Positions 14,915-20,904 of a stretch of DNA of 64,000 nucleotides are shown piece by piece. Under the pieces are notes generated by a model, which saw only the letters and a list, made by a program, of their open reading frames with translations, was not told the DNA's origin and did not search any database. Source of the DNA: Planctomycetota bacterium (GTDB lineage Bacteria > Planctomycetota > B15-G4); assembly GCA_021604805.1 (NCBI GenBank), contig BQJR01000001.1, positions 1,299,102-1,363,101 on the forward strand, read 5' to 3'. Within the stretch, counting starts at the first letter, position 1; each line of letters begins with the position of its first letter. Both the position numbers and the translations under genes were made by a program.

Positions 14915-17248
14915 TCACTCGCTGCGGCGCAGCGGAATGATCACGCGCCGCGGCGAGGAGGGCGTCGCATGAACCTCGATCGGTGGCACCGGCTCGAAGC
15001 CCTCGAGATCTTCCACGCGCACGACAAGGGTTCCGGGTGTGACAGCGAGCGCGCTGCGGCGCGCGAGGTGATCGCGGATCGTGCCCGGGGAACCAGGTGC
15101 GCGATGCGCACTGAGCTTGTGCCCGCGTCGGCCGTCGAAGGGCAGGATCGTGCCTTCGTCTTCGAAGAAGAACTCGAGCACGACCAAGCGATTCACCGCG
15201 AGCGAAATCGTTTGCTGGCCGGGGACAAGCCGGACCTCTCGTTCGCCGTACCAGACGTGCTCCGCGAACTCGGGGAGGCGCTCGGTGCCGATGCGCGCCA
15301 AGCCTGGTGCGGCCGAAAGGGTCCAGCGCCCCTCGGCGTCGGGGCGCCAGCTCTGGCCTAAGCCGGAGAGAAGCGGAGGACGCCGCACGCTGGCGGCCGC
15401 GGAGTTCGATGCCTCCAACGGGCGCCACGTGAGCGTGTCGAGGTCGTCGATCGCGAGGCCGGTTGCAGCGTCGTGCACGTGGAGTTCGACGGTCGCGAGC
15501 GAGGACACTCCCGCGCTCACGGGCGCTGCCGAGTCTCCGACGGTCGTCTGCAAGAGCAGCCCGTGGGGCAGGACGGCGAGCCCGTAGTCACCCAGCGGCA
15601 CGTTGCCGGCTGACCAACTCCACTCCTCGAGGGCGCCCTCGTGGGTCTCGGCTTCTGACCTGACCCGCACGGCGATGCTCTCCGAGGTTGCTGCTGCGGG
15701 CTCGGCGTCCAGCCGGCGCCAGCGGATCCGGGGTGGCTCGTCGCCGAGCTTCGGCAGCGTGAGACGTCCCGAGAGTTGCGCGACGGGCTCGGTGTGCGCG
15801 AGCACGACAGACGTGAGATCGAGCTCGCGACTCTCACCTGCGAGCAGGTCCACGGACCACTCTTCCAGCACGCTCGGCCGCGCGTCCGGCACTCGCAACT
15901 CGAGGCGATGCGCACCGAGGGGCAGACCGTCCCAACTCACCGACCACGAGTTCGCGGTCGGGCCGGGTGCCAGCCGGCACTGGCGAATCGGGCGACCGTC
16001 GGGAGGAGCGAGGCGCAGTCGTGGTTCCAGCACCGAGGGATGCGTGGTGAGCCTCACCTTGAGACTGGCGCCAGGAGAGAGTCGGACTTCGTGATCCTCG
16101 GTGGCGTCGGACTCCCAGCGTTGCCGAAGCCAGGCGTAGCCCGGCGCGCCGACGAAGACGTCGACGAGCTTGCTCTGCGCCGAGACCGCGTGCTCCCGCA
16201 GCGTGCTCCGCGGGATGTGAATCGTGGAGCCCTCGAGCGAAGGCCGAGCATCGAGGTCGGCTTGCGTGAGCTTGAGTCGCCCGCGGTGAGGGATGAACGA
16301 CACGACTCCGTTCGGAAGCAGCGCGCCGGAGGCGGCGTCCACGATGCGCACGGTGAGGAAGGAAGCGTCCTCGGCGACTGGCGTGGGCAGGAACGGCGCG
16401 TCGCGTGAAGGTGCGGCGTGGCCGTTACGGTCGAACAACGGGTGCGGTTCGTCGGCACGGTATGCAGGCGGCCGCGCGTGGACGAGCTCGCTTGTCGCGG
16501 GCAACGACAAGGGCGTCATGGCCACATCCGGTGTCGGCGCCGCGCCCGTGATCGGGCTCCAGAACAGGAGCGCCACCAACGGGAGGCTGACGAGCACGGA
16601 GGTCCAGAGCGGAGCCTGCCATCGCGCCGCGAGCCCTGCTGCCGACGGGCCAGGATCGACCGGCATCGGCCGACGCGCCGCCCAGGCGAGCAGCACAGGC
16701 GCCCACGCGTCGCGATCCCCGCCGTTCCGGCGGTCGAGGTCACGACGCAGCGACTGCACCGCTCGCCGACGCCACGTGCGGACCGTGGCGGGCGGAACAC
16801 CGAGCTGCTCGCCGATCTCCGTCGACGAGAGCTCCTCCTGGAAACTCAGCAGGACGACGCGGCGATCTCTCTCGCTCAACGCGTCGACCGCTTGCACCAC
16901 TTGGGCGACGACCTCGGTCGACGGCCCGTTCGACTCCCCTCGGCGCGCAGCGCGCCACTCTCGTTCCCACGCTTCCTCGCGAGCCTGCCGACGACCGCGC
17001 CCCCGCAGTTCGTTGCGACGCGCGTTCGCCATCACTGTTGCGATCCAGCCTCGCCGGTTCGCGCCGGCGGGAGGCGGCTGGCGCAGCAAGCGCAGCCAAG
17101 TGTCCTGCACGAGATCGTCGGCCTCGTGCGTGTCGCCCGTCATCCTCAGGGCGAGGCGCTGCAACCAGATGCGATCGACCTGCGGCACCGCATCGAACGG
17201 GGCCGAGGACGAACAAGTCTCGTGATCGGATTCAGGAGGGAGAGGCAT
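14915..17248 (-). CDS. membrane-anchored ECF sigma factor fused to large extracytoplasmic domain
   Basis: The protein has 777 residues. The first ~165 form a complete ECF sigma factor. Region 2 (about 27-81) contains RLALRMTGDTHEADDLVQDTW. Region 4 (about 123-162) contains LSERDRRVVLLSFQEELS and GVPPATVRTWRRRAVQSL. One membrane helix lies at about 203-226 (TSVLVSLPLVALLFW). The remaining ~550 residues are beta-rich, with several repeated sandwich-like segments (LTVRIVDAASGALLPNGVVS is typical of carboxypeptidase-regulatory-like folds). The sigma factor would therefore be tethered to the membrane with a sensor or binding part outside. The ATG used here lacks a clear ribosome site, and in-frame starts up to 27 codons earlier exist. 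It lies 164 bases after the SPASM-like maturation gene on the same strand. No anti-sigma gene is visible. Confidence 0.85.
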   Translation of the reverse strand: MPLPPESDHETCSSSAPFDAVPQVDRIWLQRLALRMTGDTHEADDLVQDTWLRLLRQPPPAGANRRGWIATVMANARRNELRGRGRRQAREEAWEREWRAARRGESNGPSTEVVAQVVQAVDALSERDRRVVLLSFQEELSSTEIGEQLGVPPATVRTWRRRAVQSLRRDLDRRNGGDRDAWAPVLLAWAARRPMPVDPGPSAAGLAARWQAPLWTSVLVSLPLVALLFWSPITGAAPTPDVAMTPLSLPATSELVHARPPAYRADEPHPLFDRNGHAAPSRDAPFLPTPVAEDASFLTVRIVDAASGALLPNGVVSFIPHRGRLKLTQADLDARPSLEGSTIHIPRSTLREHAVSAQSKLVDVFVGAPGYAWLRQRWESDATEDHEVRLSPGASLKVRLTTHPSVLEPRLRLAPPDGRPIRQCRLAPGPTANSWSVSWDGLPLGAHRLELRVPDARPSVLEEWSVDLLAGESRELDLTSVVLAHTEPVAQLSGRLTLPKLGDEPPRIRWRRLDAEPAAATSESIAVRVRSEAETHEGALEEWSWSAGNVPLGDYGLAVLPHGLLLQTTVGDSAAPVSAGVSSLATVELHVHDAATGLAIDDLDTLTWRPLEASNSAAASVRRPPLLSGLGQSWRPDAEGRWTLSAAPGLARIGTERLPEFAEHVWYGEREVRLVPGQQTISLAVNRLVVLEFFFEDEGTILPFDGRRGHKLSAHRAPGSPGTIRDHLARRSALAVTPGTLVVRVEDLEGFEPVPPIEVHATPSSPRRVIIPLRRSE

Positions 17249-17412
17249 GCTGGGAGAAGGGCACTGTGATCGCTGCGGAGGCACCGGCGTTGGAGGGAGT
17301 CTCGCGCGCGCGCCGACCATAAGGCGCATCCGAAGGCCGCGCTAGTGCACCACGCGCGAGGCAAGCCGTCCGCCCTGCCGGCCCTCAGAGCTGCTGCGAC
17401 CTGACTGAGTGT

Positions 17413-18765
17413 TCAGGCCTCCGAGGTCTCAAGGTGAACTCTCCCTTGGACGACTTGCGCCGTCACCGGGAACGACGAGTTGGCGACGCCGCGCCGTTCC
17501 ACCGCAGCCTCCACGAGTTCGCGCAAGAGTGCGGTGAGTGTGATTGTGCGCATCTCGCAGGCAAGACGCGCCGCGTAGTTTGCCCCGCGCGCGTCTCCGG
17601 CCCGAGCCAGCGCCTCGACGTCTTCGGTCACGGGCCCGGCACAGAGTTCCATCAATGCGCAGCGCTCGCACTCCGGCCAGCTGTCCACGCCCCCATCGCA
17701 TGCAAGCTTGCTTCGCGGCCCGAGGTCTCGAGTTCGCTCAGTCGGCAAGTCGCAAAGGTCTTCGAGCGGTGCGTAGACCCCGCGGCGCGCGTGATCGCGG
17801 GAACGTGCCCAGCGACCGGCGGACGTGAGGGAGAGCGTCCCCGACCGCAGCTGAGGTTTTCCACTCAGTGCGGTCCGCAGGATCGAGCGCCAAGGTTCGC
17901 TCGTGCTCAGCAACGGGACGCACTCTGCTGTGAGCGCGTCGAAGAACTGGACGGCAGCCACGAACTGGCTCTCTGTCGCAGGAGTGGCGAGCTCGAGCTG
18001 CAGGCCCTGGGCACCGTGATCGATCCACCGCTGGCAGAGCGCCGCATCCCCCTCCGCTCCGCGCACCGGCACGATCACGTGGACGCCGAAGCCTTCGGAT
18101 TTCAACGCTTGGCAGCGCGTCAACTGCTCCTCGAGACGCCAACCGCTCCGCGTGGAATCCCCGCTCAGGTCGCGGCTCCGGTCGTGGGTGAACACACGAC
18201 TCATGCAGCGATCGTCCAGAACTGTCAGGAGCTCTTCCGGAAGATCGAGGTGCGGCGTCACGACCTCGACTTGGAGGCGATCTCGCTCCCTCGAGGTGGG
18301 CGGCAACTGCGGACATACTGCAAGGAGTTCCACGAGGCGCGCGGAATCGCGGCTCGGTGATTGCAACTCGACGCGTCCACGCACCTCGGACACACGATCG
18401 CGAGCGAGCAGAAGATCGAGGGCCTCACCCAAAGCCGGTGCCAGCACATCGACGCTCGCGAGACCCGCTAGGTCGATCGTCCAGTCCTCACCGGGAAGAG
18501 CTCCGCGCAACGCACTCACCTCGGCGGCCACGAGCAAGCCGGCTCGCTTCAAACTCTCGATGTCAGCCGCACGATCCGGGAGCTCGTCGGGGAGCACGGT
18601 GCCGTTCGACTCCGCCAGTGCGACGAACCACTCGGACGAGGGGACGCGCAAGGCTTGGTACGACCGCGCTGGATCAACGGCGTAGGTCACGCCCCCCGCC
18701 ACGCAAAACAGGAGTCCAGGGGCTGCGCGCAAACTGTCAGCCACCACGGCTGAGCTTGAAGTCAT
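17413..18765 (-). CDS. SPASM-like partner protein lacking the radical SAM cysteine motif
   Basis: The protein has 450 residues. Its ATG overlaps the stop of the cysteine-repeat gene (ATGA) and has GGAGG just upstream. The N-terminus (about 1-80) resembles the small winged-helix/RRE-type region of peptide maturases (GGVTYAVDPARSYQALRV, then a Trp-containing helix and LKRAGLLV). The central ~250 residues look like a degenerate TIM-barrel, with VELQSPSRDSARLVEL, VEVVTPHLDLPEELL and VHVIVPVRGAEGD, but there is no CxxxCxxC. The C-terminus keeps an iron-sulfur-like set, Cys356, Cys366, Cys369 and Cys375 (spacing x9-x2-x5), as in the second half of a SPASM domain. I infer an enzymatically dead radical SAM relative that recruits or positions the cysteine-repeat substrate. 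The family name is unknown to me. Confidence 0.72.
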   Translation of the reverse strand: MTSSSAVVADSLRAAPGLLFCVAGGVTYAVDPARSYQALRVPSSEWFVALAESNGTVLPDELPDRAADIESLKRAGLLVAAEVSALRGALPGEDWTIDLAGLASVDVLAPALGEALDLLLARDRVSEVRGRVELQSPSRDSARLVELLAVCPQLPPTSRERDRLQVEVVTPHLDLPEELLTVLDDRCMSRVFTHDRSRDLSGDSTRSGWRLEEQLTRCQALKSEGFGVHVIVPVRGAEGDAALCQRWIDHGAQGLQLELATPATESQFVAAVQFFDALTAECVPLLSTSEPWRSILRTALSGKPQLRSGTLSLTSAGRWARSRDHARRGVYAPLEDLCDLPTERTRDLGPRSKLACDGGVDSWPECERCALMELCAGPVTEDVEALARAGDARGANYAARLACEMRTITLTALLRELVEAAVERRGVANSSFPVTAQVVQGRVHLETSEA

Positions 18766-19346
18766 GGCCCTCCCCCACCGGTCACATCCGCAGTCGTCGT
18801 CGTGCAGGTGTTCGCTCCCGCGGGTGTGCACGAGTTCGCGAGCGCGTTCGTGCAAGAGTTCGCTCCGAAACCGTCGCAGACGTTCTGGGCCCCGTTCGTG
18901 CAAACGTTGTATGCCTGAGCCGCGCAGACGTTCGAGGCGGCCCCAGCGCAGAGATTGTTGCTCCCTTGCCCCGAACAGGTGTTAGAGCTCTCCCGTGTGC
19001 AGATGTTCGCCCCGGTATCACTGCAAGCGTTGCCTGACGCCGTCCCACCACAGGAGTTGAACTGCTCTGAGCCTGCGCAGGCATTGCTGACCTGAGGCCC
19101 GATGCAAATATTCGTCTCATCAACGAAGCAGACATTGGCCTGCCCACAGGTGTTTGGCCCGCCGTAACCCTCTCCGCAAGCGTTCCCCTCGAGCCCGGGA
19201 CAGGTGTTGTCGAGTTCGCAAACGTCTGCAGATGCGCGACCAGCGAGCCCCACCGCAGCGAGGAACGCGAGACCAATGCGGCCGACCTCGCGACGCGTCA
19301 CGGGTGTCTTGTCGAGGTTGATCTTGCGCGGGCGTTCGTTGTTCAT
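18762..19346 (-). CDS. Tat-exported cysteine-repeat protein (putative modified-peptide precursor)
   Basis: The protein has 194 residues. Residues 14-40 form a twin-arginine-type signal: TPVTRREVGRIG, a hydrophobic core and ASA before Asp41. The mature part has 18 cysteines (Cys43 to Cys181). All but the first are preceded by Asn at position -2 (N-x-C), and the last twelve are spaced 8 or 9 residues apart, the last six exactly 8. Between them are small residues (Gly, Ala, Ser, Thr). The tail is Thr- and Gly-rich (ADVTGGGGP). I do not recognise a family. The regular repeat, small residues and neighbouring radical SAM/SPASM gene suggest a ribosomally made substrate that is cross-linked or metallated in the cytoplasm before Tat export. 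The repeat could form a beta-roll with two repeats per turn. The gene starts 45 bases after the radical SAM gene. Confidence 0.78.
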   Translation of the reverse strand: MNNERPRKINLDKTPVTRREVGRIGLAFLAAVGLAGRASADVCELDNTCPGLEGNACGEGYGGPNTCGQANVCFVDETNICIGPQVSNACAGSEQFNSCGGTASGNACSDTGANICTRESSNTCSGQGSNNLCAGAASNVCAAQAYNVCTNGAQNVCDGFGANSCTNALANSCTPAGANTCTTTTADVTGGGGP

Positions 19347-19391
19347 TTCGTCACTCGTCCTCGATCGGTCTCTTCGTGGTCTGGGTCGTCT

Positions 19392-20753
19392 TCAGCGCTG
19401 CCCGTCTGACTCGACCTCTGCGGAATCCTTGAGCAGCGCCTCGAGCACGCCGTGCTGCTCGGCCTCGTGGTAGAGACGCTCGGCCGCCGCGTAGAGCAGC
19501 TGGCTCCAATCGCAGAAGGCGTCGTGCGGTGTGTAAAGCGAGCCAGTCTCCGACAAGTTCGCAGCGGGGCAGAAGCCGCCGCAAATCTCGTTGACCGGGC
19601 AGGTGGTGCAGCGGTCCTTGTGCTGCTCCAGGTGGTCGAAGTCGGTGAACACGCGCTGCAACTCGTGGTTGAAGCCGCTCTTGAAGATGTTGGCGAGACG
19701 CATCTCGCCGGTGCCCCCCGCATCCTCGTCGGCACCGTCGAAACGATGGCAGGGCCAGACGTCGCCGGTGTGGTCCACCATGAGGTAGCCCTTGCCTGCG
19801 CCGCAGGGTTGGCGCCGAATCTCCACCTCCTCGGCACGGCGCCGCGGCGCGACGAGCTTGCCCACGTAGTACTTGAACACCGTCAGGTTGAACGGCTCGC
19901 CGCCGGCGTAGCTGGCCACGATGTCGTCGATCACGGTGTCGAGTTGAACAGAGAGACGCTCGAAGTGATCGGGAGTCCAAGCGCCGTAGTCAGCACTGGC
20001 CATCGCGACTTCCCGGAACCCGAGGCCTCGAAGGTACGTGAGGCTTTCGTGGAGGCGCCCCACATGGTCCGGGTGCAAGGTCATCCGCGCCTGTGAACCA
20101 GGCCGAGTGCGAAGCAGTGACGTGGCCCACTTCGCCACGGTTTCGGAGACCTTCTTCCCGTTCTTGGCCGGGCGCTGGGTGTCCTGCACGTCGGGACAGC
20201 CATCGATCGACATGAGGATGCCGAAACCGTAGCGGTCGACGAACTCGCGGATCTCATCGGTCCACAGAGTGAGGTTGCTCGTCATGCTGAAGGTCACGAG
20301 TTTCCCGCAAGCGCGGCCGCGTCGGCGCGCCCAGGGCACGAAACGCTCGATCATCCCCCACGCGAGCGTCGGCTCCCCTCCCATGAAGTTCACGTTCACG
20401 CTCGTTGCGTTGGCCGACGCTTCGAGCAGCCACTCGAGCGAACGTTGTGCCGTCTCGAACGACATCGTCGGACCGGTCAGTTCGTTCTTGAAGCAGTAGA
20501 CGCAGCCGAGGTTGCAGGCCTCAGTGACGTCGAAGTCCATGTTCGTCGTCGCGAAGAGCTGCGGGAGCGAGGTCTGATCCACAGGTTGCTCGCCAGGGTT
20601 CTCGCCGCGGTCGAGGCGGCGGGATGGCTTCGACTCGTAGACGCGAAGCTCCTGGTGGGCGCGACTTGCTGAGCCCGATGCTGCTCCCCATTCCCTGGCC
20701 TCCCCAGCAGCCTCGGTGGTGCGAGTTCCTGCTGCCTGGGGCTCGTCGCGCAT
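19392..20753 (-). CDS. radical SAM/SPASM peptide or protein maturase
   Basis: The protein has 453 residues from an ATG with AAGGTG about 9 bases upstream; a GTG four codons earlier is possible. Residues 1-65 are a charged extension. The radical SAM cluster motif is CNLGCVYC (Cys80, Cys84, Cys87), followed by the SAM-binding GGEP. The C-terminal SPASM domain is textbook: Cys317-x12-Gly-x4-Cys335, then Cys382-x2-Cys385-x5-Cys391-x3-Cys395 and a final Cys414, which can hold two auxiliary 4Fe-4S clusters. This layout is that of anaerobic sulfatase-maturating enzymes and of thioether-forming peptide maturases. Because the next gene encodes an 18-cysteine repeat protein, peptide cross-linking is more likely than sulfatase activation. 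It is the first gene of a three-gene maturation unit. Confidence 0.88.
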   Translation of the reverse strand: MRDEPQAAGTRTTEAAGEAREWGAASGSASRAHQELRVYESKPSRRLDRGENPGEQPVDQTSLPQLFATTNMDFDVTEACNLGCVYCFKNELTGPTMSFETAQRSLEWLLEASANATSVNVNFMGGEPTLAWGMIERFVPWARRRGRACGKLVTFSMTSNLTLWTDEIREFVDRYGFGILMSIDGCPDVQDTQRPAKNGKKVSETVAKWATSLLRTRPGSQARMTLHPDHVGRLHESLTYLRGLGFREVAMASADYGAWTPDHFERLSVQLDTVIDDIVASYAGGEPFNLTVFKYYVGKLVAPRRRAEEVEIRRQPCGAGKGYLMVDHTGDVWPCHRFDGADEDAGGTGEMRLANIFKSGFNHELQRVFTDFDHLEQHKDRCTTCPVNEICGGFCPAANLSETGSLYTPHDAFCDWSQLLYAAAERLYHEAEQHGVLEALLKDSAEVESDGQR

Positions 20754-20904
20754 GGGGTCGCTCACCTTGGGATTGCGTCGCTTCCATTCAGCCCGTGAGG
20801 CTCAACTCATGGGCGCACTCAGGAGGGACCCCGCCGATGCAGAAGGTGTTTCAGTTTTTTCGGCCATGCTGTGAGGCGCGCATGCAGCGTGTCTCAGCCC
20901 ACGC

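Follow-up and report, generated by a model that had tools for sequence, protein, structure and literature searches.

A candidate radical SAM maturation system for an Asx-x-Cys repeat protein with a Tat-type leader in Planctomycetota

Three adjacent minus-strand genes in a planctomycete genome, located in a 64-kb stretch of DNA (the window), code for a radical SAM/SPASM enzyme, a repeat protein with 18 cysteines, and a partner protein that carries a SPASM remnant. We show that these genes are conserved together, that the cysteines follow an Asx-x-Cys rule, that the repeat proteins begin with Tat-type leaders, and which known families lie nearest to the enzyme. It is very likely that the three proteins work together, and the enzyme probably modifies the cysteines of the repeat protein, with the caveat that this chemistry is inferred in the absence of mass or structural data.

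We propose that the three genes constitute a dedicated protein-maturation system. In this model, the enzyme would act on the repeat protein in the cytoplasm, before export, and would abstract a hydrogen from the beta-carbon of an Asx residue (Asn or Asp) located two positions ahead of a Cys. The Cys sulfur would then join that beta-carbon to create ten-membered, three-residue thioether rings, up to approximately one per repeat. The partner would probably assist in trans, either by binding the substrate or by passing electrons, and the finished product would leave through the Tat system, which can transport folded proteins. The product might serve as a rigid, oxidation-proof envelope protein. 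The thioether chemistry, the job of the partner, the timing before export, and any biological role are all inferences. We assign a probability of roughly 0.5 to the specific bond between the Cys sulfur and the beta-carbon of the -2 Asx, which is deduced from the nearest enzyme families without mass or structural data.

An initial annotation had proposed cytoplasmic cross-linking or metallation followed by folded export through Tat, and this interpretation is supported by the gene trio and the leaders. It had also stated that the gene content and motifs are seen directly whereas the modification is inferred. This assessment still holds, and nothing presented here demonstrates a cross-link.

The radical SAM/SPASM enzyme and its partner

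The features of the locus are listed in Table 1. A scan for promoters and terminators found nothing. Downstream of the system (window 14915-17329, minus strand) is a gene that, judged by reading its sequence only, fuses an ECF-sigma-like N-terminal region to a long extracytoplasmic-looking protein.

Table 1. Positions of the system's features in the window.
Feature	Position	Strand	Basis
Radical SAM/SPASM enzyme, presumed maturase	19392..20765	-	Pfam domains, cluster cysteines, NCBIfam models
Asx-x-Cys repeat protein, presumed substrate	18762..19346	-	Motif versus shuffles; four genomes with homologues beside the enzyme
Tat-type leader, about residues 1-40 (TRREVGRIGLAFLAAVGLAGRASA), cleavage site guessed	19227..19346	-	(S/T)RR plus hydrophobic stretch
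Repeat region with all 18 cysteines, mostly eight residues apart	18804..19226	-	Cys spacing
Partner protein, 450 aa	17413..18765	-	Conserved cysteines; co-occurrence with the enzyme
ATGA overlap of repeat gene stop codon and partner start codon	18762..18765	-	Read from sequence

The enzyme is 457 amino acids long if translation begins at the GTG at 20765, or 453 if it begins at the ATG at 20753. Its CxxxCxxC motif occupies residues 84-91, and the SPASM cysteines are C321, C339, C386, C389, C395, C399, and C418. All ten cluster cysteines are invariant across four homologues. Both the Radical_SAM (39.8 bits, cut-off 29.5) and SPASM (22.6 bits, cut-off 21.5) models of Pfam are matched.

For all four enzymes, which form one clade (support 100/100) with those of loci L014 and L017 paired inside, the best NCBIfam models are those for PapB, the nif11-peptide maturase, QhpD, and the SCIFF maturase. 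The enzyme of the window remains well below the cut-off of every family, which counts against our preferred reading. Specifically, it scores 229.5 bits against PapB (NF047865, cut-off 340), 197 against the nif11 maturase (TIGR04064, cut-off 518.7), 183 against QhpD (TIGR03906, cut-off 453), and 151 against the SCIFF maturase (TIGR03974, cut-off 425). The closest solved structure is CteB (PDB 5wgg) with 137 bits, and the next scores 49. Relatives on plasmids are only about 30% identical, the best being PeaB/QhpD encoded adjacent to qhpC, and no relative of the enzyme was found on viral contigs. Another planctomycete radical SAM/SPASM enzyme (L032:1090-2610, minus strand) is approximately 28% identical and has an apparent C-terminal PqqD-like domain.

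Only 48-83 residues precede the CxxxCxxC motif, and it is possible, to judge from this short N-terminal part, that the enzyme lacks a leader-binding domain of its own. If so, that job would be left to the partner, although this is a guess.

The partner begins at the ATG at 18765 and lacks CxxxCxxC. It retains C366, C369, C375, and C403, which are invariant in four homologues and form the CxxC-x5-C...C pattern of the second SPASM cluster, whereas the cysteines of the first auxiliary cluster are missing. Identity between the partner and its own homologues is only 24-29%. No Pfam family matches it above cut-off; a hit to STAS_2 (E 0.035) fell below the cut-off and was rejected. When profiles of partner and enzyme are compared, only the CxxC-x5-C tail aligns, and not significantly. 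The AlphaFold model is poor (pLDDT 51), and its best fold match in the PDB is SuiB, a radical SAM/SPASM peptide enzyme (E 0.0045). The order of strands and helices in this low-confidence model resembles a PqqD-like domain, but Pfam, PDB-sequence, and profile searches gave no match to an RRE (PqqD-like) domain. The partner could be a degenerate radical SAM protein, a possibility that is supported only by its cysteine motif and a weak fold match and that sequence searches do not confirm. PapB requires intermolecular electron transfer via its second auxiliary cluster (PMC10470005), so a partner with only that type of cluster could conceivably serve in this role, which again is a guess.

Most of what the initial annotation said of these genes has held. 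The three genes do lie in a row, all on the minus strand with the partner coupled by ATGA, and the enzyme has the intact CxxxCxxC and full seven-cysteine SPASM set described. The third protein is SPASM-like without a radical SAM motif, as claimed, with only the second-cluster cysteines kept. To this we add the placement of the enzyme nearest to the PapB/QhpD/SCIFF group.

The repeat protein and its leader

The repeat protein has 194 amino acids, and 17 of its 18 cysteines occur in an N-x-C context. Shuffles of its own letters yield a mean of 2.4 such motifs and a maximum of 7, and the other open frames of the window contain at most one N-x-C in any 120 residues. The cysteines are spaced 6-10 residues apart with a mode of 8. 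At the DNA level the octads average only 47% identity, and their Asn and Cys codons differ synonymously, which argues that the pattern is kept by selection on the protein rather than by fresh DNA duplication.

Among the 146 cysteines of six repeat proteins, 127 have Asx at position -2 (Asn 113, Asp 14), whereas Glu is found there once and Gln never. The -2 Asx is far ahead of any other position near Cys in conservation. Of the 18 scorable exceptions to the motif in the five complete repeat proteins, 12 have Asn at -4, while -3 is never Asn; if relatedness is ignored, at least 12 cases with Asn at -4 would arise with a binomial probability of about 2e-7. We therefore correct the N-x-C motif of the initial annotation to Asx-x-Cys plus a minor N-x-x-x-C form. 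Its description of 18 regularly spaced cysteines in an octarepeat is right in the number of cysteines, but eight is the mode and not a rule.

Side chains on a single face of a beta strand would also give this even -2/-4 pattern, and so the motif alone is no proof of a cross-link. It is compatible with an alternative in which the repeats form a beta-roll or beta-solenoid with stacked ladders of Asn and Cys, where the cysteines are free, disulfide-bonded, or metal-bound once exported, while the radical SAM enzyme alters the same protein in another way, such as by epimerisation. The exception parity suits packing on one strand face without any cross-link, which is a point against our preferred reading, and the structure model of the repeat protein, although of low confidence (pLDDT 51), places one short strand in each repeat. 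However, a fold search with this model gave no significant match, and the nearest maturases are thioether formers. Moreover, three of the five complete proteins have an odd number of core cysteines, and disulfides within a single chain therefore cannot use every Cys. We consider this combined alternative unlikely.

It is also possible, though considerably less likely than the preferred bond, that the enzyme modifies Cys in a different manner, by forming a thioether to an alpha-carbon (sactipeptide type), to another residue such as the Ser, Thr, or Gly between repeats, or to the following Asn (C-x5-N). Close radical SAM/SPASM families differ in their acceptor, sactipeptide maturase models match the enzyme weakly (RumMC, 62 bits), and Asn often occurs at +6 (74 of 123 Cys). 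Against these options, where the spacing departs from eight, Asx keeps its distance to the following Cys in 46 of 61 intervals and to the preceding Cys in 14, no other nearby position approaches the conservation of -2, and the nearest families form beta- or gamma-carbon links.

The preferred reading, a link to the -2 Asx beta-carbon, draws on the chemistry of these relatives. PapB, QhpD, and SCIFF enzymes form thioethers between Cys sulfur and side-chain carbons. In both Asn and Asp a beta-methylene is attached to a carbonyl, and this is the site used by PapB, by QhpD (on Asp), and by NxxcB (PMC8326336, PMC9413430). PapB links Cys to the beta-carbon of Asp, tolerating zero to six intervening residues, with completion at one to five (PMC9413430), and NxxcB links Cys to that of Asn (PMC8326336). 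Given this spacing tolerance and the precedent for Asn, a ten-membered Asx-x-Cys ring would be chemically plausible, by inference from these relatives. A point against it is that in PapB and QhpD substrates the acceptor mostly lies after Cys, whereas the presumed acceptor here lies before it, which matches NxxcA except that the gap is shorter by one residue.

All five complete repeat proteins carry (S/T)RR directly before a hydrophobic stretch, with the RR invariant, compared with none of 35 controls. These controls are signal-like candidate starts from other open frames of the same loci, which were chosen mechanically and are not curated genes. TatC is encoded in each of the four genomes checked. 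The twin-arginine-type signal noted in the initial annotation is thus upheld. Export of the repeat protein via Tat is inferred from the leaders and TatC, and the transport step itself is an inference.

These features invite a bolder reading, which we hold to be less likely than not and more doubtful than the preferred bond. In it, the enzyme, aided by a cluster-bearing but catalytically dead partner, would zip up a scaffold the size of a protein by placing a thioether in almost all of its eight-residue repeats. The result would be an encoded polythioether rod that is exported ready-made by Tat, with the Tat signal doubling as the leader for the maturase.

Conservation and neighboring genes

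The enzyme was found in 3 of 392 planctomycete genomes, and the partner and a full-length repeat protein are present in the same three. A fourth genome, that of L014, has the same gene set, such that full sets are known from four planctomycete genomes in two families, with shuffled gene order. In G005 (L012/L013), which belongs to the family of the window's genome, the order is repeat, enzyme, partner. Loci L014, L015, and L017 were identified by scanning genome contigs with the enzyme. L014 has the enzyme, the partner, and two repeat genes in a row, whereas in L017 the enzyme and repeat gene share a strand and the partner is located about 3 kb upstream on the opposite strand. The hosts of L014 and L017 belong to one family. 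A further search among the 154 genomes of the class that includes L017 added no complete set other than that of L014's genome.

Incomplete copies were also observed. In L015 the enzyme is present only as its first half, and the genome concerned yielded no repeat gene. Its enzyme (L015:6863-7800, plus strand) stops after about 180-230 residues and runs into an unrelated sequence resembling a toxin-type C-terminal region, which could be a relic or an assembly join. Two repeat fragments occur without an enzyme. One (L031, 9556-11432) is cut short against a transposase gene, and the other (L044/L046) is located by a transposase gene at the end of a 3.3-kb contig, where sequence may simply be missing. 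These fragments look as if the system had been lost through insertion or rearrangement. A match of the repeat profile in G034 was rejected as a low-complexity frame with an internal stop.

The set is rare, its parts travel together, and among the genomes searched it occurs only in Planctomycetota. These conclusions rest on four complete loci, all planctomycete and mostly from draft genomes. The initial annotation had suggested a search for conservation of the trio, and had named repeat homologues occurring mostly without the radical SAM gene as grounds for refutation. The trio passes, with all three parts present together in four genomes, and the refuting pattern is not seen, as the copies without an enzyme are fragments by transposase genes.

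These data also bear on whether the enzyme and partner serve another substrate, with the Cys-rich repeat protein a mere neighbor. The distant, opposite-strand partner of L017 is consistent with this idea, and the link between enzyme and repeat protein has no experimental support. However, in each of the four complete loci, whatever the gene order, a full-length repeat gene either adjoins the enzyme or is no more than one gene away, and no full-length repeat gene without an enzyme was found in the genomes searched. This explanation therefore seems very unlikely.

Several other genes are located near the system. An Nfu-type iron-sulfur carrier gene (NifU plus A-type domain) is present at L014:6288-6890 (+), L017:1858-2514 (-), and L031:6039-6728 (-), whereas no NifU gene stood out in the window or in the 17 kb of L012, where no model search was made. 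Such a carrier would fit a need for many iron-sulfur clusters, but this is only a possibility and its dedication to the system is not established. In G005, the gene just upstream of the repeat gene (L012:11344-15603, minus strand) codes for a very large protein with TPR repeats and, at its C-terminus, a caspase-like domain. A gene weakly similar to MptE-like (DUF115-type) proteins, with a match below cut-off, directly follows the repeat gene at L014:11910-13289 (+) and L031:8783-9541 (-).

N-x-C is a minor sequon for N-glycosylation, and the MptE-like gene raises the prospect that the Asn residues are instead glycosylated. This explanation can be all but dismissed: Asp replaces Asn at 14 sites, the MptE-like match is below cut-off, and the radical SAM enzyme would be left unexplained.

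Significance and comparison with known systems

We found neither an Asn-x-Cys radical SAM system nor a Tat-exported one in the literature searched, with most subscription papers being outside its scope. The radical SAM thioether products described there are short peptides with one to six links. If the preferred reading is correct, the system would bring thioether chemistry to protein materials, with 18 to 33 candidate links in a single exported protein, and would add a small Asx-x-Cys ring, a new type of partner, and a tie between radical SAM modification and Tat export. A many-times cross-linked exported protein would be a new form of the known radical-made peptides, an inference that depends on the equally inferred cross-links. 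The genes are few and small enough for direct study by co-expression.

The PapB/PapA (freyrasin) ranthipeptide system is the best-scoring family for all four enzymes and shares the three-cluster SPASM layout, and PapA likewise has many pairs of Cys and acidic-type residues in one substrate. However, the six Cys-x3-Asp links of PapA lie in a short peptide, whereas the substrate proposed here is a protein with a Tat-type leader and 18-33 Asx-x-Cys pairs in which Asx comes before Cys. The partner gene is a further difference. In the streptococcal NxxcB/NxxcA system, Cys is bonded to the beta-carbon of an Asn that lies before it (PMC8326336), but NxxcA is a short peptide with one link and with Asn three residues before Cys, rather than two and repeated.

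QhpD/QhpC, which functions in quinohemoprotein amine dehydrogenase maturation, provides the closest plasmid relatives of the enzyme. QhpC is a protein-sized substrate that is cross-linked inside the cell and then exported, but it is a small dehydrogenase subunit without repeats, unlike the protein described here. The SCIFF maturase CteB, the nearest solved structure, also acts on a Cys-rich substrate, although this is a 45-residue peptide with neither a Tat leader nor a partner gene.

The initial annotation set the CXXX-repeat and Cys-every-fifth systems apart by their spacings. Their maturase models score the enzyme below cut-off (TIGR04115, 111 bits versus 350; NF038107, 49 bits versus 600). 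These two systems and that of TvgA, with its TVGG repeats (PMC9062424), also place a radical SAM maturase beside a tandem-repeat substrate, as is proposed here, but their repeat units differ from Asx-x-Cys.
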